DNA from: Bacteroidetes bacterium HGW-Bacteroidetes-7
GTDB lineage: Bacteria; Bacteroidota; Bacteroidia; Bacteroidales; UBA932
NCBI GenBank assembly: GCA_002842465.1
Contig: PHDA01000022.1
Location: 1 to 43,870, forward strand
DNA length: 43,870 nucleotides
Direction: 5' to 3'
Made by a program: the position numbers and the translations under genes. Positions 5,082 through 21,226 of this stretch are shown one piece after another. Under the pieces are notes generated by a model, which saw nothing but the letters and a program-made list of their open reading frames with translations, made no database searches and had not been told where the DNA came from. How positions within the stretch are numbered: position 1 is the stretch's first letter; every line of letters starts with the position of its first letter.

Positions 5082-6356
5082 ATGGATAAAACGATATGCC
5101 TCTATTTTCAGGTACATCAGCCACACAGGCTCAGATTATACCGCTTTTTTGACATAGGTAAAAGTTCATACTATTTTGATGACTTTGCCAACAAAACAAT
5201 TCTCCGAAGAATTGCTGAGAGATGCTATCTCCCGGCCAATCGGCTTATAAATGAACTTATTGTCAAATACAAAGGTACATTCAGGGTAACTTATTCATTA
5301 ACCGGATCTGTTATTGATCAGTTTGAAAAATTTGCTCCGGAGGTGATAGAGAGCTTTAAGGAGCTGGCAAAAACCGGATGTGTTGAATTCCTTGCAGAGA
5401 CATACTCACACTCACTCTCAGCACTCATTTCAGAAGAGGAGTTCAAAGAACAGGTAAAATTGCATGATCAAAAGATTTTTACCCTTTTTGGAGTAAGACC
5501 CACTGTTTTCAGAAATACCGAGCTTATATACTCAGATAAAATTGGTGCTATTGTGGCAGATATGGGTTATTCAGCAATGCTTACAGAGGGGGCAAAACAC
5601 GTTTTGGGCTGGAAAAGCCCCAATTTTCTCTATACAAACGCGCTAAACCCTAGACTAAAAATATTACTTAAGAATTTCAATTTAAGTGATGATATTGCCT
5701 TCCGCTTTTCTAATCAAAGCTGGGCAAACTGGCCCCTGACTGCTGACAAATATGCCGGATGGTTGGCAAAAGCACTGGAGAAAGACGATCTTGTCAATAT
5801 ATTCATGGACTATGAAACCTTTGGAGAACACCAAAATGTTTCTACCGGAATATTTGACTTTTTAAAACATTTACCGGCTGAAATAATGAAGTATAAAACA
5901 ATAAAATTTGATACTCCTGCCGAAATATGTAAAAAGCACCAACCCGTAGCACCTTTGCATGTACCATTCCCAATTTCATGGGCAGACGAAGAGAGAGATA
6001 CAAGTGCATGGATAGGCAATGAGCTTCAAAATGAGGCAATTGCGAAACTCTATTCAGCTGAGCTTAAGGTAAAAAATTCAGGTGACACAGCTTTACTGGC
6101 AGATTTCAGAAAACTTCAGGAGAGTGATCACTTCTACTATATGTGCACCAAATTTTTCTCTGACGGGGCGGTTCATAAATATTTTAATCCATACGAAACA
6201 CCATACGAAGCATTTATTAACTATATGAATGTTATAAGTGATTTTCTTCTCAGGTGCGACAGAGCAGCACAACCTACCGGAGAGCCCGGTGGAATAATTA
6301 TTGCAGAAGATAAAAGCCCTGTAAAAAAGAGAGCAGTAAAAAAAGTAAAACCATAA
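5082..6356 (+). CDS. GH57 family alpha-amylase / 4-alpha-glucanotransferase
   Basis: A 424-residue GH57 enzyme that hydrolyses or transfers alpha-1,4-glucan chains. The family motifs are in order: YFQVHQPHR at residues 8-16, the sheet segment with AETYSHSLSALIS (105-117), catalytic nucleophile Glu147 in FRNTELIY, and acid/base Asp243 in FMDYETFGEH. There is no signal peptide, so it acts in the cytoplasm on stored glucan. The C-terminus has a short lysine-rich tail (after residue 400) that looks disordered and may be lineage-specific. Gene starts 5 nt after the GT4 stop and ends 9 nt before the fusion gene. Amylase versus glucanotransferase cannot be decided by reading. Confidence 0.85.
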   Translation: MDKTICLYFQVHQPHRLRLYRFFDIGKSSYYFDDFANKTILRRIAERCYLPANRLINELIVKYKGTFRVTYSLTGSVIDQFEKFAPEVIESFKELAKTGCVEFLAETYSHSLSALISEEEFKEQVKLHDQKIFTLFGVRPTVFRNTELIYSDKIGAIVADMGYSAMLTEGAKHVLGWKSPNFLYTNALNPRLKILLKNFNLSDDIAFRFSNQSWANWPLTADKYAGWLAKALEKDDLVNIFMDYETFGEHQNVSTGIFDFLKHLPAEIMKYKTIKFDTPAEICKKHQPVAPLHVPFPISWADEERDTSAWIGNELQNEAIAKLYSAELKVKNSGDTALLADFRKLQESDHFYYMCTKFFSDGAVHKYFNPYETPYEAFINYMNVISDFLLRCDRAAQPTGEPGGIIIAEDKSPVKKRAVKKVKP

Positions 6357-6365
6357 TATAATAAA

Positions 6366-9300
6366 ATGTCAGAAACTAGTTTTGTATCACCGGATTATCT
6401 GTTTGAGGTAAGTTGGGAAGTGTGTAATAAAGTAGGTGGGATACATACGGTTATTGCAACAAAAGCATTAAATCTATCAAAAGAGTATAAAAACCATATC
6501 CTTATAGGGCCTGATGTGTGGCGGGAAACCCAGCAGAATCCTGAATTTACAGAAGACAACCAGCTTCTTAGAGCCTGGAGAGTAAAAGCATCTCAGGATG
6601 GTCTCAGAATAAGAGTAGGCAGATGGAATGTTGCCGGTGCACCGGTTGTAATTTTGGTTGACTTCAGCCTTTATATCCCTTCAAAAGATGAAATATTTGC
6701 CAAATTTTGGGAGAGCAACAAGGTAGATTCTCTTTCCGGCCACTGGGATTACACCGAAAGTGCACTATTTGGTTACGCTACAGGTAAAGTTATCGAGAGC
6801 TTTGTTAAATTCAATCTGGCCCCCCACCATAAAGCGGTAGCTCAATTTCACGAATGGATGACAGGAGCCGGTATTCTCTACCTTAAATCGACCAAATTAC
6901 CGGTAGCAACAGTCTTTACAACACATGCAACAGTTACCGGCAGATCGGTTGCCGGGAATAATCTGCCCCTTTACGACAAGATGACAGAATATTCTCCTGA
7001 AGAGAAGGCGCGTGAGTTCAATATTATATCAAAACACACCTTGGAGAAGGCCTCAGCACAAGAGGCAGATGTGTTTACTACAGTCTCAGGCATTACAGCC
7101 AGAGAGTGCAAACATTTTCTGGGCAAAGAGGTAGATGTAATAACTCCTAACGGATTTGAAAACACCTTTACTCCAAAAGAGGGTGAGTTTAAAATTTGTG
7201 CAAAAACTGCCAGAAAGAAGCTAAACGAAGTAGCCTCTCTAATGACAGGTCAGGAGATTGATCAAAACGCAATTATGATTGGTATTAGCGGTAGATACGA
7301 ATACAAAAATAAAGGTATTGACATTTATCTTGACGCTATTTCAAAATTAAACAGCATTAAAGATCTCGAAAAAGAGGTATTGGCATGGATCTTTGTACCT
7401 GCGTGGCACAACGGACCTGATAAAAATCTTCTCCCGAATTCAAATTCAGGTGACTATACAACCCAAACAACTCATATGCTTTATGAGCCTGACAATGACC
7501 CTGTTCTTAAAAAGATAAAGGAGCTTTTCCTTTTAAATAAAAAAAGCGATAAAGTTAAGGTACTCTTTGTACCATCATATCTGAACGGTGACGACGGCAT
7601 ATTTGGACTAACATACTACCAGCTTCTTTGCGGGTTAGACCTCACCGTGTTCCCATCATATTATGAACCTTGGGGTTACACACCTTTGGAGAGTCTTGCC
7701 TTTGGAGTTCAAACCATTACCACAACACTTGCGGGTTTTGGCCTATGGGTCAAAGAGCACTCTGTTGATTATGGCGATGCAATTGAGATAATTTTCAGAG
7801 ATGACAGCAATTACGATTATGTAACCGAGATGGTGTTCCAGAGGATGCTCACTGTCACCCGGCTTTCAAAAGAGGAGTCTCTTGAGCGAAGAATAAAGTG
7901 CAAAGAGGTTTCAAAAATTGCACTCTGGGATAATCAGATTAAATTTTACAAAGAGGCATATTCACTTGCAATTGAAAGGGTAATACTCAGAAAGGGAGTA
8001 TTTCCGGTTAATCAAGATCATAAAGAACATATAAGCTTTAAAAGGGACGTATCAAATAAACCTCAATGGAGCAGAATACTCATTGAGAAAAGGGTACCTC
8101 CAAGGCTTGCAAATCTTGAAACTATCTCAAGAAACCTATGGTGGTGCTGGAATCAGAATGCTGTAGAGTTATTTGAAATGGTTGATAAAGAGCTATGGAA
8201 CGAATCTGACAGAAACCCAATTTTAATGCTGGAACGAATATCTCTTCGCAGATATTCAGAGCTTGAACAAAACACTAACTTCCTGGATAAACTTGATAGT
8301 GTATTCAATGAGTTTAACGAGTATATTTCAGGCAAAGGAAAAGAACAGGGGGCAAAAATTGCCTATTTCAGTATGGAGTTCGGCCTTGACAAATCACTAA
8401 AAATATACTCCGGAGGCCTTGGTGTACTTGCCGGTGATTATCTTAAGGAGGCCAGCGACATGATGGTTCCTATGACAGCAGTAGGTCTGCTGTACAGATA
8501 TGGTTACTTTACACAGAAGTTGTCTGCATTTGGCGACCAGATTGCCAGCTATGAGCCTCAGGATTTTTCCAAGCTTCCTGTTACTCCGGTGAGAGACATT
8601 AACGGAGAATGGATTACCATAGGGGTAGCTCTTCCCGGTCGTACTCTGGCAGCCAGACTGTGGCGAGCAGATGTTGGAAGAACAGAGCTTATACTTCTTG
8701 ACACAGATTTTGAAGCAAATATTCCGGAAGACAGAGCCGTCACCCACCATCTATACGGTGGTGACTGGGAAAACAGACTCAAGCAGGAGTTGCTTCTTGG
8801 AATAGGAGGAGTAAGGGCATTAAGGGTTCTGGATAAAAATGCAGATGTATATCATCTGAATGAAGGGCATGCTGCCTTTGCCGGTTTAGAAAGGTTAAGA
8901 GAGTATGTAACCGAAAAGAACCTCTCTTTTGCAGAGGCAATGGAAGTTGTAAGAGCTTCAACTCTCTATACTACTCACACTCCGGTACCTGCAGGGCATG
9001 ATTCATTTCTTGAAGATCTCCTAAGGGGTTACATTTCTCATTACCCATCACGCCTTAAGGTTAGCTGGGAGGTATTAATGTCATTGGGTAAGATTGATCC
9101 ATCTAACCACCATGAAAAATTTTCAATGAGCAACCTTGCAGCAAATCTTGCTCAGGAGATTAACGGAGTGAGTATGCTTCACGGAAAGGTAAGCAGAGAG
9201 ATTCTGTCTGACCTGTGGCCAGGTTATTTGCCTCAAGAGCTTCATGTAGGATATGTAACAAACGGAGTTCACTATCCAACCTGGACAGCTCCTGAGTGGA

Positions 9301-13085: not shown

Positions 13086-14237
13086 ATGAGAAAACTTTTT
13101 GTTGCAGCTCTGCTCTCCTTCGCGATTATGTCATGTGTTAAACATACATCAAAAGCGGTTATCGAGGGTACAATCACAGATTTGCAAAGTGGGAATATTG
13201 TCCTTAAGATGCTTGATGTAAACACACAAATTGAGGTTGACACAATTGTTGTTAAAAATGGAGGCAAGTTTTCGTACAATGTGAAAAAGAGCTCAGAGAC
13301 ACCTGAATTTTACTATCTCTACCACAACAGCACAAGAATTGCATCAATGATTTTAATGCCGGGTGACAAGGTTAAAATAACATCAGATACACTCGGGCTT
13401 AACTCTGTTGTTGAGGGTTCTCCGGAGAGTACTCTTCTTCACAATCTTGAGAGAGAACTTGGCAGATCGCAACACAAATTTGACTCCCTTTACACCCTCA
13501 TGACAGATGCAAAATCTGCAAGCGATCTTAAGAGGGCAGAGGAGCTAAACTTTCAGTTAGGCTCTCTTTACGTAAAGCAGAAACAGGCAGCAATCAAATA
13601 CATCTACACAAACCCAAGATCAATTACCGGGATAATGCTTCTTTACCATAGATTTTCTCCGGATGTGCCATTGTTTGCAGATGTAAGGGATGTGTTAATT
13701 TTCAGAAAGGTTTACGATACACTTCAAACTATCTATCCAAAGTCGGTGTATCTATCAAGACTTCTTGACGAAATCGTAAACAGGGAGCAGACAGAGGTAT
13801 TCAACACAAAGATACTTGACGCCTCAGAGAGCGGTTTCCCCGATATTTCGCTACCAGACAGAGAGGCAAAAATGCGATCACTATCTGATCTTTCAGGCAA
13901 AGTTATAATACTTTCGTTTTGGAGCATCACCGATGTGAACCAGCGAATGATGAATCAAGATCTACTGGATCTTTACAGCAGATTCAGCAGTCGTGGATTG
14001 GAGATATATCAGGTTTCTGTTGATACCGATAAAACTGCATGGGCAAGAGCTGTAGCAGAACAGAACCTTCCGTGGGTAAGCGTATGTGACGGTTACGGGT
14101 CAGGTTCAGTTGCCGTATCAACCTACAATATTCAAAAGGTTCCTACAATTTATGTGATTGACAAAAGCGGTACAATTGCAGCCAAGGACATCTTTGATGC
14201 TGAGCTGGAGAGAAAAATTGCAACCCTGCTAAAATAG
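13086..14237 (+). CDS. Lipoprotein with DUF4369 and a cysteine-less thioredoxin-like domain
   Basis: 383 residues. A signal sequence ends in the lipobox IMSC, making Cys17 the lipidated residue. Residues about 22-110 match the DUF4369 pattern common in Bacteroidetes thiol-disulfide lipoproteins (VIEGTITD...GNIVLKML). The C-terminal third (from about 250) has the AhpC/TlpA fold pattern: FPDISLPDREAKMRSLSDLSGKVIILSFW, then YQVSVDTDKTAWARAVAEQNLPWVSV, and VPTIYVIDKSGTI. At the redox site, where FWASWCPPC is expected, the sequence is FWSITDVNQ (278-286), so both active-site cysteines are missing. Redox activity is therefore unlikely; a binding or structural role is my inference. It starts 3 nt after the HIT gene and its end overlaps tsaB tail-to-tail by 9 nt. 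Confidence 0.82.
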   Translation: MRKLFVAALLSFAIMSCVKHTSKAVIEGTITDLQSGNIVLKMLDVNTQIEVDTIVVKNGGKFSYNVKKSSETPEFYYLYHNSTRIASMILMPGDKVKITSDTLGLNSVVEGSPESTLLHNLERELGRSQHKFDSLYTLMTDAKSASDLKRAEELNFQLGSLYVKQKQAAIKYIYTNPRSITGIMLLYHRFSPDVPLFADVRDVLIFRKVYDTLQTIYPKSVYLSRLLDEIVNREQTEVFNTKILDASESGFPDISLPDREAKMRSLSDLSGKVIILSFWSITDVNQRMMNQDLLDLYSRFSSRGLEIYQVSVDTDKTAWARAVAEQNLPWVSVCDGYGSGSVAVSTYNIQKVPTIYVIDKSGTIAAKDIFDAELERKIATLLK

Positions 14238-14930
14238 ACTCTTCTTTGATATTCCCGCAACAAAATCCTTAAGATAAAACGGCTCAAAGTAAGCCACATC
14301 TTCAAATTTGGATTCATGAAATTTAACAAGTGCCGGAGCAAGCATGCCTCCGGCACTTGCATTTATATCTGTAAAAAGTGCATTATGGTGATTAACTACA
14401 CCACGAACTTTTTCGACCCCATCTCCACAGAAAAGAGTTAAGCCTTGGTCAAGTATATCCCTAAAGCTGTTTTCATCAATTATAACAGCCTCTACAGGGC
14501 TGATTCTGGCCGCATCTCTATCATAGATGGCAGAATAGACCTCCATTCTTCTGGCATCTATCATTGAGATAATTCTATAGAGAGAGCTCTCTTGAGAATA
14601 CTGTTTTGAAGCAATGTTTGCAAGTAAATCAAGTGACCCGACAGCTATCAGCGGTTTGCCTGACCCATAACACAAACCCTTGGCAATTGAAACACCAACC
14701 CTTAAGCCTGTATAAGAACCAGGCCCTTCACTTACAACAACGGCATCTGTTGCTGAAATATCAATACCGGACTTTTTAAGTACACTCTCAACCATTGGTG
14801 CAATCAGCCTTGCGTGTGCCTTTGGCTCTTTTACCACAATTTCGTTGACTAACTCACTGCCCTTTGAGAGGGCAACGGAACAGACCTCGGTACTAGTCTC
14901 AATAAAAAGCAGAACGGGGCTTTTTTTCAT
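14229..14930 (-). CDS. tsaB: tRNA threonylcarbamoyladenosine biosynthesis protein TsaB
   Basis: Partner of TsaD in making t6A37 on ANN-decoding tRNAs (cytoplasm). 233 residues. The ASKHA fold begins with LLFIETSTEVCSVAL, and GPGSYTGLRVG is the TsaB signature; HARLIAPMVESVL follows the first strand set. It is the last gene of the minus-strand run, 13 nt after the membrane-fusion protein gene, and its 3' end overlaps the convergent lipoprotein gene by 9 nt. It is an essential housekeeping gene downstream of an export operon, so readthrough from that operon probably contributes to its expression (inference). Confidence 0.93.
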   Translation of the reverse strand: MKKSPVLLFIETSTEVCSVALSKGSELVNEIVVKEPKAHARLIAPMVESVLKKSGIDISATDAVVVSEGPGSYTGLRVGVSIAKGLCYGSGKPLIAVGSLDLLANIASKQYSQESSLYRIISMIDARRMEVYSAIYDRDAARISPVEAVIIDENSFRDILDQGLTLFCGDGVEKVRGVVNHHNALFTDINASAGGMLAPALVKFHESKFEDVAYFEPFYLKDFVAGISKKSLF

Positions 14931-14943
14931 TCAGATTGAATGG

Positions 14944-16200
14944 TTATTTTTTCTTCTCTTTATCCTTGTCAGGAGATTCAGGTGAAACAACAGTACCTTT
15001 TTTAAGAGTCTTGCTTATGGCTGAGAAAGGTCCGATAACAATTGACTCGTTATCTTGAAGACCTGTGAGAATCTCAATATTTGCAAGGTCCTGAATTCCG
15101 GTAGTAATTTCCCTTACCTCAACAGTATTATCTTCTTTGACAATAAATACCTGCTCCATAGATTCATTTATGCCCATTTTGGTCTTAACGCTGTCGGGTA
15201 TAAGGTCGGTTCTGGTAGTAATTGCCTGAAGCGGAATTGTGAGTATGCTGTCTTTTCTTGCAGTCTGAATAGAGACAGAGGCAGACATTCCGGGACGGAA
15301 AGGATTGCGCCCGGTTGCAGAGAGGTCAGAATAGGAATCCTGAAGAATATAAATCTTAACCTCAAAATTTGTCACCTGCTCAATAGCGGAACCGATATTT
15401 TTTGCAGAGTTGGCGATTTGAGTAACAACTCCGGCAAACTTCCTGTTTGGATATGCGTCAACCTCAATAGTGGCAGTATCGCCCTGTTTAATTCTGATGA
15501 TATCATTCTCATTAACATCAACCAAAACCTCCATATTTTCAAAATTGGCAATACGTAGCATTTCAGTTCCCGCCATCTGACTGGTACCAACAACCCTCTC
15601 ACCTTTTTCGACACTCATCTTGGAAATGATTCCATCCATAGGAGCATAAATGACTGTTTTTGTAAGATTCTCAACAGCCTCCTTCAGCGCGGCGCTTGAC
15701 GATTTAACGTTGAACTCAGCAGCCTTTATCTGCTCTTTTGCCATAAGATACTGTGATTGAGCGCTTTCAAAATCGGCTTCTGACAAGGCTTTTTGCTCAT
15801 ACAAAGTTTTAGTCCTGTTGTAAGTCTGCTCTACCTGAACAAACTGCGCCTGAAGCTGTGTCAACTGGGCTCTTACAGAGTTAAGTGATGCCTCAGCCCT
15901 CTCACGCATTGAGATGTAAACATCTTGCTTGATTTTTATGATAAGATCGCCTCTCTTTATGTGATCTCCCTCTTTAAAGTTGAGCTCCACAATCTCTCCC
16001 GATACATCCGGACTGATTTTTACCTCAACTACAGGCTTAATTTTTCCGTTTGCAGGAATTACCTCAATGATGCTTCTTCTGCTGATCTTTTCGACAGTTA
16101 CTGTTGTTACATTTTTCTTCTTGCTGTTTCCGTAAAAAGCCAGAACTACTATCAGTACAAATGCAATTGCAATAATCCATTTGATATTTTTCTTTTTCAT
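14944..16200 (-). CDS. Membrane-fusion (HlyD/MacA-type) periplasmic adaptor
   Basis: 418 residues. A single N-terminal membrane anchor (about 6-24, KWIIAIAFVLIVVLAFYG) is followed by the lipoyl/barrel-sandwich half (VEVKISPDVSGEIVEL, then GDHIKRGDLIIKI), a long alpha-helical hairpin (about 85-170), the second lipoyl half (IYAPMDGIISKM) and beta-barrel segments. The tail is lysine-rich. It bridges an inner-membrane transporter to an outer-membrane TolC channel. It is 11 nt downstream of the TolC gene. No RND permease or MacB-type permease lies next to it. The only transporter in the run is the C39-ABC exporter at 18161-20392, which fits type I secretion of peptides. General efflux is the alternative. 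Confidence 0.85.
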   Translation of the reverse strand: MKKKNIKWIIAIAFVLIVVLAFYGNSKKKNVTTVTVEKISRRSIIEVIPANGKIKPVVEVKISPDVSGEIVELNFKEGDHIKRGDLIIKIKQDVYISMRERAEASLNSVRAQLTQLQAQFVQVEQTYNRTKTLYEQKALSEADFESAQSQYLMAKEQIKAAEFNVKSSSAALKEAVENLTKTVIYAPMDGIISKMSVEKGERVVGTSQMAGTEMLRIANFENMEVLVDVNENDIIRIKQGDTATIEVDAYPNRKFAGVVTQIANSAKNIGSAIEQVTNFEVKIYILQDSYSDLSATGRNPFRPGMSASVSIQTARKDSILTIPLQAITTRTDLIPDSVKTKMGINESMEQVFIVKEDNTVEVREITTGIQDLANIEILTGLQDNESIVIGPFSAISKTLKKGTVVSPESPDKDKEKKK

Positions 16201-16211
16201 CTTAGTTAAAT

Positions 16212-17531
16212 TTAGAGAGATATTGGTTTCCCTTTGTAAAAGTCGAGAATTTTAAGCTGAAACACATACTGATATTTCGATTGGAAATACTCAGATTGTG
16301 CTTTAAAGAGATTTGCTTTCGCAACAGAGTAGTCGGTTGCATTAAGAGCACCCACGTCAAATTTTTGCTGAACATATCTGAATGACTCCTGCATAGCAGT
16401 AACATTTCTCTCTGAAGCCAGATAACGCTCGTAATATGCGAATGCGTCATTGTTGGCCTGCTGGATCTCTTTGTAAAGCATTTGTCTTCTGCTTTTTACC
16501 TCGATCTGAGAACTCCTCACACCCAGTTTAGCATTTTTTATATTTGTTTTAGTCTGAGAATTATTGAAAATTGGAATACTGATCCCAAAACCCATTGAGG
16601 GGTTTCTGTTTTCATTAAACTGGTCCATGAACGGCTGATCACGACTGTCGCTGTAGTATGTACCGTAACCGGCAGAAAATGAGAGAATCGGAAAAGCCCG
16701 GCCTTTAGCTAGTGACAGCTGAATATCTGAATTCTTAAGATTGAGTTCTGCACTCTTTATCTGAGGCAATGACTGTGAAAGCTCATAAAGATTGTCAATT
16801 GATTCTCCATTAAAATCCTGAATCATAAAATCAATATTAACATCCTGAATATCAAAATCGTTAGAGTTTTCAAGATCAAGAAGCTGTACGAGACTCAATA
16901 AGACACTTTTCAGTTGGTTTTTTGCATTTACAACTTGCACCCTCTCAGCAGCCAGCTGAGCCTCAATTTCGAGAAAAGAGCTATATGCAAGGCTACCGGC
17001 ATCAACCATCTTTTTGGTTCTGTCAACCTGTTGCTCCACACTTAGAATGCTCTGATCTGCTGTTTTTACGATCTCTTTTGAGAGAAGAATCTGGAGGTAT
17101 AACCTGGCAATTTCAACCGAAATGTCGTTTTTAATTTTGCTTACCTCAACAGTAGAAATCTCCTTCTGGAGAGTTCTGCTTTTAACCTCGTTACCCTTAG
17201 TGAAACCCTCAAAAAGATTGATGCCTGCCCTCGCATTTGCACTTGTGCTTTGGGTAAGCTTATTTTCGATAATCTCCAGAGTTTGAAGGTTTACCGAGCG
17301 ACCCCAGTTCATAGAGTGGCTCAGAGAAGCATTAAGAGAAGGGATATAGTTCATCTTAGCCTGCTGAAGATTATTCTCGCTTTGTTCTACCGCAAGTTCC
17401 TGCTGTTGTATCTGCAAGTTATTATCCCAGGCGTACCTGATGCACTCCTCAAGACTCCACCTCTTCTGACCGCTGAGGAGAGATGGCACGATAAGGAGTA
17501 GTAATAAAGGGAGTTTGTAATAAATTTTCAT
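16212..17531 (-). CDS. TolC family outer-membrane channel
   Basis: 439 residues from the ATG at 17531; the frame also opens 9 nt earlier at a TTG, which is less likely. Signal peptide MKIYYKLPLLLLLIVPSLLSG, then W-S-L-E-E-C-I-R-Y-A, the usual start of the outer-membrane efflux protein domain. Two similar halves rich in long helices with Q/N/A heptads follow (QQELAVEQSENNLQQAKMN; LNLKNSDIQLSLAKG). SFSAGYG and GFGISIPIF are typical of TolC strands. It forms the trimeric outer-membrane exit duct. It lies 64 nt downstream of the second small peptide gene and 11 nt upstream of the adaptor. Confidence 0.87.
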   Translation of the reverse strand: MKIYYKLPLLLLLIVPSLLSGQKRWSLEECIRYAWDNNLQIQQQELAVEQSENNLQQAKMNYIPSLNASLSHSMNWGRSVNLQTLEIIENKLTQSTSANARAGINLFEGFTKGNEVKSRTLQKEISTVEVSKIKNDISVEIARLYLQILLSKEIVKTADQSILSVEQQVDRTKKMVDAGSLAYSSFLEIEAQLAAERVQVVNAKNQLKSVLLSLVQLLDLENSNDFDIQDVNIDFMIQDFNGESIDNLYELSQSLPQIKSAELNLKNSDIQLSLAKGRAFPILSFSAGYGTYYSDSRDQPFMDQFNENRNPSMGFGISIPIFNNSQTKTNIKNAKLGVRSSQIEVKSRRQMLYKEIQQANNDAFAYYERYLASERNVTAMQESFRYVQQKFDVGALNATDYSVAKANLFKAQSEYFQSKYQYVFQLKILDFYKGKPISL

Positions 17532-17595
17532 AATTCGCAAAGTTAATTTTTTTCTATTACAAAACTCCCAAAAAATACAAAATATTTATACGGTA

Positions 17596-17811
17596 TTACT
17601 TGTAAATCACCTGTGTGTTTGCCTGCATCTCGTACATATTATTGCTTAAAAACTTAAACAAACGCCACATTTTTTTTACACCATAACCCACACCTCTGCC
17701 AACAGCGTTGGCAATATCGTAGTCCCAACCATCGGAACCACCTGTAATTCTGCAACTTTCCTCGAAGTTCAGGGCAGTTAACGAACTGCAACTAATATCT
17801 ATACTGTTCAT
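17596..17811 (-). CDS. Double-glycine leader peptide B (putative exported bacteriocin-like peptide)
   Basis: 71 residues from the ATG at 17811. That start is chosen because it follows a GGAGG ribosome-binding site and overlaps the upstream stop (TAATG). The leader ends at residues 24-25 in ESCRITGG and shows classical C39 spacing: Leu at -12, Glu at -8, Ile at -4, Gly-Gly at -2/-1. The predicted mature peptide is 46 residues (starts SDGWDYD), with a glycine-rich stretch NAVGRGVGYGV followed by a cationic amphipathic segment KKMWRLFKFL. GRGVG is a GxxxG motif. There are no Cys pairs or modification enzymes nearby. The neighbouring C39 exporter would cleave after GG and export it. Antimicrobial activity is inference; a signalling peptide is an alternative. 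No immunity gene is recognised. Confidence 0.75.
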   Translation of the reverse strand: MNSIDISCSSLTALNFEESCRITGGSDGWDYDIANAVGRGVGYGVKKMWRLFKFLSNNMYEMQANTQVIYK

Positions 17812-17999
17812 TACGCCTCCTCCCAACCTGCTTGAAATCCATCTTTAAATGCCGGCCAGTATTTTTCTGCCTTTTTTATGGCATCACCCAACATATTCAG
17901 CAACAACCAGAGTTCACGGAGAGAAACCCCTCCATTTGTCTGCATTTCATTTTCGTCAAGAGTCTTCAACCCCCACTCATCTCTCAAATGCTCTTTCAT
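17811..17999 (-). CDS. Double-glycine leader peptide A (putative exported bacteriocin-like peptide)
   Basis: 62 residues, ATG at 17999. The leader ends at Gly23-Gly24 within LDENEMQTNGG, like Bacteroidetes GG leaders, but the spacing from the E-M pair to GG is one residue shorter than the usual pattern. The predicted mature peptide has 38 residues: a hydrophobic helix (LRELWLLLNMLG), a mixed-charge segment (AIKKAEKYW) and an end with GFQAG, a GxxxG motif. Its stop codon shares an A with the ATG of peptide B, so the two are translationally coupled. It sits 161 nt downstream of the C39 exporter. Role as bacteriocin or pheromone is inference from leader, size and context. Confidence 0.72.
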   Translation of the reverse strand: MKEHLRDEWGLKTLDENEMQTNGGVSLRELWLLLNMLGDAIKKAEKYWPAFKDGFQAGWEEA

Positions 18000-18073
18000 G
18001 ATTTCAATTTTATTAGTTTATCCACAGTTTAAGCGCGTGGACTTCCGCCGGGAGTGTGCACCCTCCCAATTTA

Positions 18074-18133
18074 TTCACTTTTATCTGTTAATTCACTTTT
18101 ATCTGTTAATTCACTTTTATCTGTTAATTCACT
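18074..18133. repeat. 18-bp tandem repeat, about 3.3 copies
   Basis: On the minus strand the unit AGTGAATTAACAGATAAA occurs three times in a row plus a fourth AGTGAA. The unit length is six codons. The array lies between the exporter stop and peptide A, and in the exporter's own frame it would encode repeated LTDKSE after the stop codon. Confidence 0.9.
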
Positions 18134-18160
18134 TATATCAATTATTTCGCTTATAGCAAG

Positions 18161-20392
18161 TTAAATGGAGATAATTCTGTCTGCAATTCTTAGGGTTGTA
18201 TCATTGTGAGTAATCAATAATACAGCAACCCCTTTCTCCCGCAATTTTAAAGTCAGGTTACATATAAGTTGTTCAGTTGTCTCATCTAAAGAGGATGTTG
18301 CTTCATCCAATATCAGAACTTTTGGTTTACGCAAAACTGCCCTGGCAAAGGCAATTCTCTGCTGTTGGCCCCTGGATAGCATTGCTCCCCCCTCACCGAC
18401 ATGTGAAGCAAATCCGCAGGGGAGCGACTCTGCCAGTTTATCCAGCTCCAGTGAAGCCATAGTCTCAGAAAAGTATTCATAATCTCTCTCGTTACCTCTA
18501 TCCTCTTCGCAAACAATACAATCAAGCAAAGTGTTTCCATAAAGCCCGGGATTTTGAGGCACAATAGAGACTATTTTCCTCCAGGTATCTTTTTTGAATT
18601 CTCTGTAATCCAAATCATTAAGCATAATGTTGCCACTTTTAGGAGATAGATGGTGCATCAATATAGAGGCAATTGTACTTTTACCGCAACCGCTTCGCCC
18701 CGTAATTGCCAGAATTTCACCGCTGCAAACTTCAAACGATAAATCTTTAATGACCAGCCCCCTTCCCGGATAGCCGAAGCTTATATTATCAACTACGATT
18801 TTTGACCCATTTATTTCATGCTTACTTATTTCATTATCATTAATTTCATTATTGCTTGATTCATTCTTGCTTGATTCATTCTTACTTGATTCATTTTTAT
18901 TTACTTCGTTCTTTTTTTCTGCACTCTTATTTGCTTCACTATTATTTACTTCTCTCTTATTTTTACCTTGTTTATTACTTTCAACTCTGCTAATTTCATT
19001 ATCAGTTTCAGATTTACACTCCATTATATCAAACAACCGGTCTGCTGCAATAATTCCCTCTCTTACAGAGGAAATCGATGAGGCGAGCTGCATAAGAGGA
19101 GCCGAAAAGAGTGCCGTAATTGCAAAGAATGAGACAAGCTCACCGGGTGTCAATAACCCTTTGATTGTAGCAGCTCCGCCAACTATCAATACAGATACAG
19201 TGAGCATACCTGAGGTGAACTCTCCTGCCCCTGATGCAGTTACAGAAATCTTTCCCGACGCTGCAACATTTTTATTCAATAGAGTCAGCTTTCCAAGATT
19301 ATCGTTGACAGATATACTTTCTAAACCCATATTTTTAATTGTCTCGGCAGATCGGATGCTCTCTATTACACTGCTCTGAAACTTTGACGCACTCTCCATA
19401 ACTCTTCTTGCAACCGGTCTTGCTATCTTGTCGTGAATTATATAAATTGATAAATAGAGTGGAATAAATGCTGCACAAAGCCATGCAAGATTTTTATCTG
19501 TGACAAAAAGTACGGTCAATGCAAAAATGAGAGTGAGAAAGGCAATAATCCCTCCGGTTACTGTTTCGGTAATAAAATTTCTTATCCTGTAAACATCATT
19601 CACCCGTGATACCATCTCACCTGTTCTAAGCGAGCGGAAAAAACTTAACGGTAATTTGTGAATGTGGGATATGTAGTCTGATATCAATTTCTTATCTGTC
19701 TCTACTGTAACACTTACCATCAGACGACCTCTATAGTATGATACTGCTGCTGTTGCAACCAATACCAAGGAAAGAAAAATTGCATACCTGAACAAATTTT
19801 CTGAGTTTGCCAATGGAATTATCGAATCCAACAGATGCTTAACAAAAAGAGATACGGCCAAAGATGTAGCAATGCTTACTAAAGAGAGCAAAAGGATTGT
19901 GATGTATCTTCCTGCATTTAGCTTGATCACCTGTGCCAATTTTTTATACACTCGTAGCCGTGAACCAAACTCTTTAGAATCTTTGCCCGGAGTAAATAGA
20001 ATAAGCAGGCCGCTCCACTCCTTTAACAGAGACTCTCTAATTACTCTTCGAATATTTCCCTCTGCAGGGTCCATTATTTTGTATTCTTTTGTTGTCACTC
20101 CATAGAGTACAACAAAATGTAGCCATCCATCAGGTTTTCTAAGATGCAGAATGGCAGGCAGAGGAATCTTTGACAACGAAGCAACATCTCCCCTGTAACC
20201 CTCAGCATTAAAGCCGAAATGTTGTGCTGCTTCAATTATACCTCTTACAGTGCAACCCGATGAGTCGGTGCCGCTTTTTACCCTGATTTCTGACAGTGGA
20301 ATTTCTGCTCCATAGTGAGCAGCTACCGATGCCAGAGACGCTGCCCCGCAATCACTTCTGTCATACTGTCTGATTTTTCCCGATCTCCTCAT
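18161..20392 (-). CDS. Peptidase-containing ABC exporter (C39 protease + ABC transporter)
   Basis: 743 residues. Cleaves double-glycine leaders and exports the cargo across the inner membrane. N-terminal C39 protease (1-130): oxyanion Gln9, catalytic Cys15 in YDRSDCGAASL, His92 in LHFVVLYGV and Asp108 in IMDPAEG are all present, so it should be an active protease and not a degenerate C39-like domain. Membrane domain about 160-450. ATPase domain: Walker A GRSGCGKST (565-573), signature LSRGQQQRIAFARA, Walker B VLILDEATSSLD, H-loop LLITHND. Unusual: a ~70-residue hydrophilic Asn/Glu/Lys/Ser-rich linker (about 460-529) with NESSK repeats separates the membrane and ATPase domains. It heads the run exporter, peptides A and B, TolC, adaptor. 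No clear promoter was seen in the 227 nt before it. Confidence 0.92.
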   Translation of the reverse strand: MRRSGKIRQYDRSDCGAASLASVAAHYGAEIPLSEIRVKSGTDSSGCTVRGIIEAAQHFGFNAEGYRGDVASLSKIPLPAILHLRKPDGWLHFVVLYGVTTKEYKIMDPAEGNIRRVIRESLLKEWSGLLILFTPGKDSKEFGSRLRVYKKLAQVIKLNAGRYITILLLSLVSIATSLAVSLFVKHLLDSIIPLANSENLFRYAIFLSLVLVATAAVSYYRGRLMVSVTVETDKKLISDYISHIHKLPLSFFRSLRTGEMVSRVNDVYRIRNFITETVTGGIIAFLTLIFALTVLFVTDKNLAWLCAAFIPLYLSIYIIHDKIARPVARRVMESASKFQSSVIESIRSAETIKNMGLESISVNDNLGKLTLLNKNVAASGKISVTASGAGEFTSGMLTVSVLIVGGAATIKGLLTPGELVSFFAITALFSAPLMQLASSISSVREGIIAADRLFDIMECKSETDNEISRVESNKQGKNKREVNNSEANKSAEKKNEVNKNESSKNESSKNESSNNEINDNEISKHEINGSKIVVDNISFGYPGRGLVIKDLSFEVCSGEILAITGRSGCGKSTIASILMHHLSPKSGNIMLNDLDYREFKKDTWRKIVSIVPQNPGLYGNTLLDCIVCEEDRGNERDYEYFSETMASLELDKLAESLPCGFASHVGEGGAMLSRGQQQRIAFARAVLRKPKVLILDEATSSLDETTEQLICNLTLKLREKGVAVLLITHNDTTLRIADRIISI
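18854..18898. repeat. 15-bp tandem repeat inside the exporter linker
   Basis: Three copies of a 15-bp unit (plus strand GCTTGATTCATTCTT, the third with two changes) encode the pentapeptide repeat NESSK in the exporter linker. The unit is a multiple of three, so copy-number changes keep the frame. Confidence 0.85.
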
Positions 20393-20619: not shown

Positions 20620-21165
20620 TTAGAATTGTGTGATTTTGTTAAAAATCTGTTCAAGGCCGCTGGTATTATCTTGCAGGTTTTGCAAATATGGGAATACGGC
20701 AGGAGCAATAGATGAGACAAACTCATATAACTTAGACTCTGCAAGCTTTTCAGCAGGCAAAAAGTGGTAAAGTTTGTCAAGTGAGTTTAGAATATGAATT
20801 AAAACACTTAGTACAAATGCATATTTTACAATTGCAAACAGAACACCCAGAATTCTGTCAAACCATCCAAGCAGTGCCAGTTTAACAATTCCGGCCACAG
20901 CTCTGCCTATCAGGTTAACCAGAATTAAAACACCAACAAAAATCAGGGCAAAGGACAAAATATCTATAAGGGTACTTTCTGAACCGAAAAGAGGCTTTAT
21001 CCAGCCCGAAACCAATGATGAAAAGTGCCAGCCGGCCCAAATTCCAAGAATGAGTGCAGCAAGAGCAGCTACCTGTCTTACAAAACCTTTTCTTATCCCA
21101 CCAATAACTGCGGGTATCAAAATAATCAGTATTGCAATATCAACGGGGTTGAAGTTATATCCCAT
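20620..21165 (-). CDS. CvpA family membrane protein
   Basis: 181 residues with four hydrophobic segments. It starts MGYNFNPVDIAILIILIPAV, followed by GGIRKGFVRQ, the signature turn after the first helix of CvpA (colicin V production) proteins. The frame is open further upstream to 21315, but that extension overlaps ileS and its promoter, and family members start here. The name derives from a requirement for colicin V production in E. coli; in most bacteria the role is unclear and may be envelope homeostasis. It is transcribed away from ileS from a promoter with ideal spacing. The peptide exporter lies 227 nt downstream on the same strand. Confidence 0.85.
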   Translation of the reverse strand: MGYNFNPVDIAILIILIPAVIGGIRKGFVRQVAALAALILGIWAGWHFSSLVSGWIKPLFGSESTLIDILSFALIFVGVLILVNLIGRAVAGIVKLALLGWFDRILGVLFAIVKYAFVLSVLIHILNSLDKLYHFLPAEKLAESKLYEFVSSIAPAVFPYLQNLQDNTSGLEQIFNKITQF

Positions 21166-21173
21166 AGCATTTT

Positions 21174-21204
21174 TTTTCAAAAGTAGTGAATAATCGTATC
21201 TTTG
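21174..21204 (+). promoter_or_regulatory. Predicted promoter of ileS
   Basis: The -7 box TATCTTTG (21197-21204) matches exactly. The -33 position 19 nt upstream is TTTT within a T-run. It overlaps the divergent cvpA promoter almost completely. The start site would be near 21210, about 16 nt before the ATG. Confidence 0.6.
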
Positions 21205-21208
21205 CAAA
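21178..21208 (-). promoter_or_regulatory. Predicted promoter of cvpA
   Basis: On the minus strand, TTTG (21208-21205), exactly 19 nt, then TACTTTTG (21185-21178). This is a full match to the Bacteroidetes TTTG-N19-TAnnTTTG consensus. The start site would lie only a few bases before the ATG at 21165, giving a very short leader. Confidence 0.7.
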
Positions 21209-21226
21209 TTCACAAAAAATTCCAAA

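Follow-up and report, generated by a model that had tools for sequence, protein, structure and literature searches.

A predicted class IIb-like peptide pair, its C39 exporter and an RNA pseudoknot at a conserved locus of Bacteroidales

Class IIb bacteriocins consist of two peptides that each carry a GxxxG or similar motif in a helical domain, and they are accompanied by a membrane-associated immunity protein (PMC8538875). Bacteroidetocins, which are produced by Bacteroidota, have a double-glycine (GG) leader, an exporter with a double-glycine peptidase domain and no obvious immunity protein; they are single peptides of 42 amino acids (aa) with four cysteines and a 15-aa leader, and are associated with a thiol oxidoreductase gene and with mobile elements (PMC6671954). 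The CdzC and CdzD proteins of Caulobacter have extended GxxxG repeats and are cell-associated (PMC5380434), and the preview of a class II bacteriocin atlas reports that predicted precursors occur in Bacteroidota (PMC12648078). Here, we describe a locus in a 43,870 nt stretch of DNA (the window) from Bacteroidetes bacterium HGW-Bacteroidetes-7 (contig PHDA01000022.1 of GCA_002842465.1), in which an earlier reading of the sequence, the original prediction, had placed a complete export system for GG-leader peptides of a kind that it called poorly described in Bacteroidota. The latter does not hold, as GG-leader bacteroidetocins are known, and the window peptides may themselves be listed in the atlas. 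Among the papers listed in literature searches, no title or opening of an abstract describes this peptide pair or the RNA element that precedes it.

The explanation that we favour, and consider reasonably probable, is that the window contains a fixed chromosomal locus that makes and exports a class IIb-like antibacterial pair, with a covarying pseudoknot that likely sets the amount of peptide translated. The gene order originally predicted, namely a C39 exporter, two small genes with GG leaders, a TolC channel and an adaptor on one strand, agrees with the coordinates:

18161..20392, minus strand: C39 peptidase-containing ABC exporter, 743 aa (Pfam Peptidase_C39, ABC_membrane and ABC_tran)
18050..18067, minus strand: hairpin GGGAGGGTGCACACTCCC, 5' of the pseudoknot
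18020..18049, minus strand: H-type RNA pseudoknot (shuffle test, covariation and control gene starts)
17811..17999, minus strand: peptide 1 gene, 62 aa; leader of residues 1-24 ending in GG, predicted mature part of 38 aa with GFQAG (GxxxG)
17596..17811, minus strand: peptide 2 gene, 71 aa; leader of residues 1-25 ending in GG, predicted mature part of 46 aa with GRGVGYG (overlapping GxxxG)
16212..17531, minus strand: TolC-type outer membrane channel (listed frame 17540-16212, likely ATG at 17531; Pfam OEP, 1e-48)
14944..16200, minus strand: MacA/RND-type membrane-fusion adaptor (TIGR01730, above cut-off)

The small frames and their GG sites, which the original prediction had proposed to check for conservation, proved conserved. 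Among 60 relatives, peptide 1 was found in 29 and peptide 2 in 26, and each was present in 25/25 genomes of the same genus (the window's genome counted). In 249 genomes of the family, peptide 1 was found in 130 (12/25 genera) and peptide 2 in 135 (11/25 genera); relatives of the peptides occur, for example, in Bacteroidetes bacterium 41-46 and HGW-Bacteroidetes-10. A search of 295 genomes of the order returned only four matches to peptide 1, which were the window's own, two from the family and a weak one (5e-4) outside it. The peptide pair lies between the exporter and TolC in 30/30 loci, comprising 24 from the genus (G008 was left out as a region) and one each from six other genera. In 20 further loci (20 genomes, nine genera of the family), where peptides 1 and 2 were told apart by position, the pair directly follows the exporter in 19 and TolC, adaptor and TsaB come next in 17. 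The exceptions are a locus without TolC and adaptor (L193), one that stops at a contig end (L209) and one that is rearranged (L195). Exporter and peptides are adjoined by TolC and adaptor in 47 of the 50 loci read. The rearranged locus (from G099), in which a different adaptor precedes the exporter and two widely spaced GG frames follow before TolC, was excluded for its gene order from the set of 49 loci used below. Peptide start codons were assigned by hand.

For both peptides, the ratio of non-synonymous to synonymous substitution rates (dN/dS) was 0.03-0.27 (12 informative of 13 pairs), and this, with the presence of each peptide throughout the genus, rules out that the small frames are chance open reading frames. 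Tree distances of the exporter, the peptides and their neighbours correlate with r of 0.52-0.94 (0/999 permutations reaching these values; 21 genomes), which fits vertical inheritance.

GG was present in both peptides in 49/49 loci. In the 30 aligned loci, the invariant columns were M1, G23, G24, G54 and G58 in peptide 1, and M1, G25, G38 and G42 in peptide 2, where G24 exceeded 90%. Alignments of database proteins, which used 45 of the 64 found for peptide 1 and 33 of the 41 found for peptide 2 and partly come from the same genomes as the loci, retained G24, Y47, G54 and G58 in peptide 1 and G24, G25, G38 and G42 in peptide 2. A GxxxG motif was found in the mature part of peptide 1 in 48/49 loci and of peptide 2 in 45/49 (both in 44/49), compared with 10.8 and 14.3 loci, respectively, expected on shuffling of the mature residues, and [GA]xxxG was found in peptide 2 in 49/49. 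Single helices that contain the motif are predicted for residues 27-61 of peptide 1 and 29-66 of peptide 2. The two genes overlap by one base, with the start of peptide 2 on the stop of peptide 1, in 24/24 same-genus loci, and the spacing ranges from -14 to +48 in the six loci from other genera. As the order, the gene overlap and the paired GxxxG motifs are conserved, it is preferable to regard the cargo as a single two-peptide unit.

The exporter next to this unit has all four C39 catalytic residues, Gln9, Cys15, His92 and Asp108, at the places originally given. Gln and Cys were present in 48 of 50 aligned exporters, and His and Asp in 49, the absent cells being gaps in two fragments (G003 and G012). 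With an N-terminal C39 domain that includes these residues, followed by a membrane domain and an ATPase, the protein has the composition of a peptidase-containing ABC transporter, and its best solved chain by sequence was 4ry2, an 'ABC-type bacteriocin transporter' (E 6.2e-96). Exporter matches were found in 35/60 relatives, including 25/25 of the same genus, and a relative that is 78% identical was found in the Rikenellaceae bacterium metagenome-assembled genome UBA12406. The earlier view that a C39 exporter, its GG-leader cargo and the parts for a route through both membranes lie together is thus supported. A tandem repeat at 18811-18962 lengthens the linker between the membrane domain and the ATPase of the window exporter to 67 residues, compared with 12-37 in five relatives.

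The locus resembles class IIb systems such as lactococcin G and plantaricin EF and JK in its two adjacent small genes, here for GG-leader precursors beside a C39 exporter, and in the GxxxG-type motif that each peptide carries in its helical part (the helices being predicted). Class IIb peptides have GG leaders and C39 export, as is predicted for the window pair, and their antibacterial activity depends on both peptides being present in roughly equal amounts. The window locus differs from these systems in its Gram-negative setting with TolC and a MacA-type adaptor, in being core and vertically inherited, in its RNA pseudoknot, in being known here from sequence and in its lack of an immunity gene. 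The cluster includes no gene for a membrane-associated immunity protein, and between the exporter and TolC there is no sense frame of at least 40 aa except for the peptides and a 45-aa frame that overlaps peptide 2. Because of this, we name the window locus class IIb-like and do not count it as a member of the class.

The original statement that no immunity gene is recognizable stands for the window. In a sister genus, g45, a gene for an Abi/CAAX-type membrane protease of ~240 aa lies between peptide 2 and TolC in 12/12 loci (L197, L212 and L214-L223). Two of the g45 proteins were scanned and both match PF02517, the family to which Abi proteins belong, well above the cut-off. This protease is likely the immunity gene of the g45 loci, and it is the best outside support for a bacteriocin. 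The immunity proteins of plantaricin EF and JK also resemble the Abi family (PMC8538875). Most genera read have the pair without an adjacent Abi-type immunity gene. In the window's genome, a search beyond the locus that was limited to PF02517 returned a single match, on another contig.

With bacteroidetocins, the window system shares the GG leader, the C39-type exporter, the lack of an immunity gene beside the peptides and the Bacteroidota host. It differs from them in having two peptides, no cysteine in the mature parts, leaders of 24-25 aa and a fixed locus, and membership was rejected, as the mature peptides are 38 and 46 aa without cysteine and no oxidoreductase gene lies between the exporter and TolC. 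Over the 49 loci, cysteine occurs in three mature peptides 1 and 10 mature peptides 2. A ribosomally synthesized and post-translationally modified peptide was also ruled out, as a Pfam scan of eight window proteins showed no modification enzyme, in line with the original prediction. Two-component bacteriocins predicted from Hungate1000 have two successive core peptides with a double glycine and AxxxA, GxxxG or SxxxS motifs, as does the GxxxG pair described here, and the accessible part of that work names no such pair from Bacteroidota (PMC13289728).

Several observations weigh against an antibacterial pair. Confidence in the predicted structures is moderate at a mean predicted local distance difference test score of ~73, with predicted template-modelling scores of 0.33 and 0.35. 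The net charge of the mature part is -1 in peptide 1 and +2 in peptide 2, bacteriocin peptides being more commonly cationic, and GxxxG is common in many non-toxic helices too. Neither peptide matched any Pfam or NCBIfam family. Besides the missing immunity gene in the window, an Abi/CAAX motif was absent from 59 of 61 loci scanned, the two positives being g45 loci; the regular expression used detects only Abi/CAAX-type proteins, and other immunity types could escape it. It is by position only that the adjacent TolC and adaptor are assigned to the exporter. Finally, the pair belongs to the core gene set and shows purifying selection, which is unusual for bacteriocins, and because this core conservation is unlike that of the mobile bacteroidetocins, we regard an antibacterial role as likely, not established.

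The same properties bear on a rather improbable alternative, in which the two peptides do not form a toxin but are conserved for signalling or for an action on the producer itself, as a kin signal or in the envelope or biofilm. Presence in 25/25 genomes of the genus, purifying selection, distances congruent with those of the neighbours and the lack of an adjacent immunity gene in the window would all suit such a role. However, the paired GxxxG motifs and the length of the predicted helices are in keeping with toxins that pair in membranes, immunity is a fitting role for the Abi-type gene of g45, and no receptor or regulator gene is found among the window's neighbours. We consider it very unlikely that the pair remains attached to the surface of the producer and kills on contact in the manner of the glycine-zipper proteins of Caulobacter, although Cdz is likewise a Gram-negative system with type I export of two small secreted proteins that carry GxxxG motifs, and CdzC and CdzD are cell-associated (PMC5380434). 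Cdz has an immunity gene, cdzI, extended zippers and surface aggregates that have been shown, whereas the window system, seen here as sequence, has no immunity gene and only short overlapping GxxxG motifs in peptide 2. Moreover, just 26% and 30% of the residues in the window's mature peptides are Gly, Ala, Val or Ile, far from the aliphatic-rich zippers of CdzC and CdzD.

Overall, we take the system to be a real, conserved and coherent case of apparent class IIb-like two-peptide export, in which a new RNA element is the most surprising part. The original prediction had recognized no regulator, and this must be revised, as a conserved RNA pseudoknot precedes peptide 1. In the window, stem 1 is formed by GGCG (18049-18046) and CGCT (18035-18032) and stem 2 by GTCCACG (18042-18036) and TGTGGAT (18026-18020), and the structure ends 20 nt 5' of the peptide 1 ATG. 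When the 90 nt before peptide 1 were searched, an H-type pseudoknot with a score reached by no more than 3/60 dinucleotide shuffles was found in 44/49 loci, including 23/24 from the genus. The five loci without the element are L134 in the genus, and L199, L200, L202 and L209 outside it. As a control, stretches preceding six further genes in the loci of the genus were searched (up to 24 loci per gene, 40 shuffles, starts set by alignment), and 10/138 had such a structure at the 5% level. Most of the 44 pseudoknots end 16-25 nt 5' of the ATG (42/44) and have no base between the stems (37/44). Two that were placed implausibly (L119 and L122) were dropped, leaving 42 for alignment.

Some rows in the alignments of all 49 leaders (A3) and of the 42 pseudoknots after trimming (A4) had stem 1 displaced by one base. 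Covariation was therefore scored in two groups of rows with uniform spacing, A5 (18 rows) and A6 (20 rows), which cover 38/42 rows. Pairs were formed in 92.9% of cells in A5 and 90.8% in A6, percentages that are inflated by selection of the rows after a pseudoknot had been found, and the better evidence is the 35 and 33 cells, respectively, that changed on both sides; 0/500 shuffles reached the values for pair formation or for doubly changed cells in either group. Covariation was 0.515 in A5 and 0.421 in A6, compared with at most 0.125 and 0.144 for slid partners. Two measures in A5 (pairs changed on both sides, 52/500; further pair types, 362/500) and one in A6 (75/500) did not beat shuffling. 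We conclude that the predicted pseudoknot structure is well supported.

Within the 28 nt 5' of the pseudoknot, 42/42 loci have a hairpin whose arm comprises four or more pairs, a count made without a shuffled control. A model (R1) of the hairpin and stem 1 found one copy per genome in 27/60 relatives, each directly before peptide 1, in a scan with stricter filters; these include 25/25 genomes of the genus, 24 elements of which were used to build the model and therefore match by construction. Applied to the mixed set of loci, it gave 16 matches at E up to 10, with three off the element (L203 at 120-167, L127 and L210). No Rfam family matched the window element or 13 related loci at the curated threshold, and the four sub-threshold matches include a plant-virus pseudoknot family (15 of 39 bits, E 2.6). 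The element is a compact pseudoknot, as is the STAXI motif (PMC2864571), and differs from this motif and from riboswitch pseudoknots in having no Rfam match, occurring once per genome and being tied to a gene pair for secreted peptides.

The distance from the exporter stop to the pseudoknot varies from -35 to +111 nt. As the distance to the ATG is fixed, the pseudoknot belongs to the peptide message, and a readthrough or frameshift signal for the exporter is excluded. A metabolite regulon is excluded by the single copy per genome. Most simply, the pseudoknot would control the translation of peptide 1. A tentative alternative, which has some chance of being correct, is that it instead marks a border for mRNA processing or stability between the exporter and its cargo, or that it is a ligand-binding riboswitch. 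The pseudoknot does come after a hairpin near the exporter stop, and several known riboswitches are formed by H-type pseudoknots. In addition, TAnnTTTG, the Bacteroidota -7 promoter consensus, is absent from the 150 nt before peptide 1 in 24/24 same-genus loci, and for this reason exporter and peptides probably share one message. The fixed position relative to the ATG and not the exporter stop argues against this alternative, as do the single copy, unlike a metabolite regulon, and the lack of an Rfam match.

In the explanation favoured here, exporter and peptides would form one transcript, and the pseudoknot, positioned at what would be the upstream border of an initiating ribosome, would control or insulate the translation of peptide 1. 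The one-base overlap would couple translation of peptide 2 to that of peptide 1 and yield near equal amounts of the two. The C39 domain would cut both leaders after GG, and from the exporter both peptides would go on to the MacA-like adaptor and TolC. Once released from the cell, the two helices may pair through their GxxxG faces and permeabilize the membranes of competitors. Self-protection would likely be provided by the protease in the sister genus, and in the window's genus it may be encoded elsewhere or be absent, as reported for bacteroidetocins (PMC6671954).

Export of the colicin V type similarly joins a C39 exporter, an adaptor and TolC across two membranes (PMC10352776). The window system differs in its cargo, a GxxxG pair, and in its adaptor, which matches TIGR01730 (RND/MacA type) at 177.4 bits against a cut-off of 94.9 but does not reach the thresholds of the HlyD-type and bacteriocin-accessory models. 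Three further features of the locus are the following:

20620..21216, minus strand: CvpA-family membrane protein, the usual upstream neighbour (Pfam Colicin_V, 1.7e-30)
17538..17545, minus strand: promoter-like motif TAACTTTG, which fits TAnnTTTG, 6 nt 5' of the TolC ATG
14229..14930, minus strand: tsaB-like housekeeping gene, the usual downstream neighbour (Pfam TsaD, 1.6e-26; synteny)

Eleven relatives have an adaptor match but no peptide, and five of these were read. In two loci from the same family, CvpA, TolC and adaptor (L124, from G030) or CvpA, TolC, adaptor and TsaB (L125, from G031) occur without the exporter or peptides there, and in three from other families (L131, L132 and L133) the same is true of TolC, adaptor and TsaB. 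Four of these five exporter-less sets adjoin tsaB. A TAnnTTTG motif lies just 5' of the TolC ATG in 24/24 same-genus loci. Given the exporter-less sets and this promoter-like motif, the locus looks composite and not like one dedicated operon. Probably, a TolC-adaptor-tsaB set with a promoter of its own is the older part, and exporter and peptides joined it later; alternatively, they were lost in the genera that are without them. As CvpA adjoins TolC also where the exporter is missing (L124 and L125), a role for CvpA as immunity protein is unsupported.

It is also conceivable, but unlikely, that TolC and the adaptor serve another pump and that the peptides exit through other components. The five exporter-less sets, the MacA/RND type of the adaptor and the motif before TolC are consistent with this, and against it stands the adjacency of TolC and adaptor to the exporter and peptides in nearly all loci read. 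An inverted repeat (GGGAGTTTTGTAATA ... TTATTACAAACTCCC) at 17509-17569 surrounds the TolC TAnnTTTG motif and start codon. By eye, its arms appear to covary between species, and it could be an operator or a hairpin within a read-through transcript.

The usual gene order is IleS, CvpA, exporter, peptides, TolC, adaptor, TsaB, a TlpA-like gene, HIT and GreA, with different flanks in some loci outside the window's genus. In the window, the TlpA-like thioredoxin gene of this neighbourhood is on the far side of tsaB (13086-14237). Besides the tandem repeat in the exporter linker, a second one at 18067-18164 spans the exporter stop and the gap that follows; the two have units of ~15 and 18 bp. The window's genome (2.39 Mb, 42 contigs) has C39 matches on two further contigs. 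One (contig 15, 1-18000; L127) carries a second C39 locus in which two GG-leader frames lie near genes that by eye resemble those for graspetides, together with a short C39 fragment frame at 5574-5750. The other (contig 42, 19000-33000; L126) carries another C39 exporter and adaptor, one short GG-leader frame (7797-7949) and divergent genes that by eye resemble a sensor and regulator pair.

If the explanation favoured here is true, a class IIb-like pair would belong to the core gene content of a Bacteroidales lineage, and the question would arise of how producers survive when no immunity gene adjoins the pair. The sister genus, with an Abi-type gene at the same spot, offers a natural comparison. 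The pseudoknot would be a new RNA element in constant association with the gene for a secreted peptide, and dozens of compensatory variants of it occur in nature. The composite layout shows a possible route by which a two-membrane peptide exporter may be assembled. More broadly, and with about even confidence, we propose that a family of Bacteroidales has a fixed two-peptide secretion system with cargo governed by a new class of cis-acting RNA, and that the pair would be a standing weapon or a kin-directed agent and not an occasional bacteriocin.

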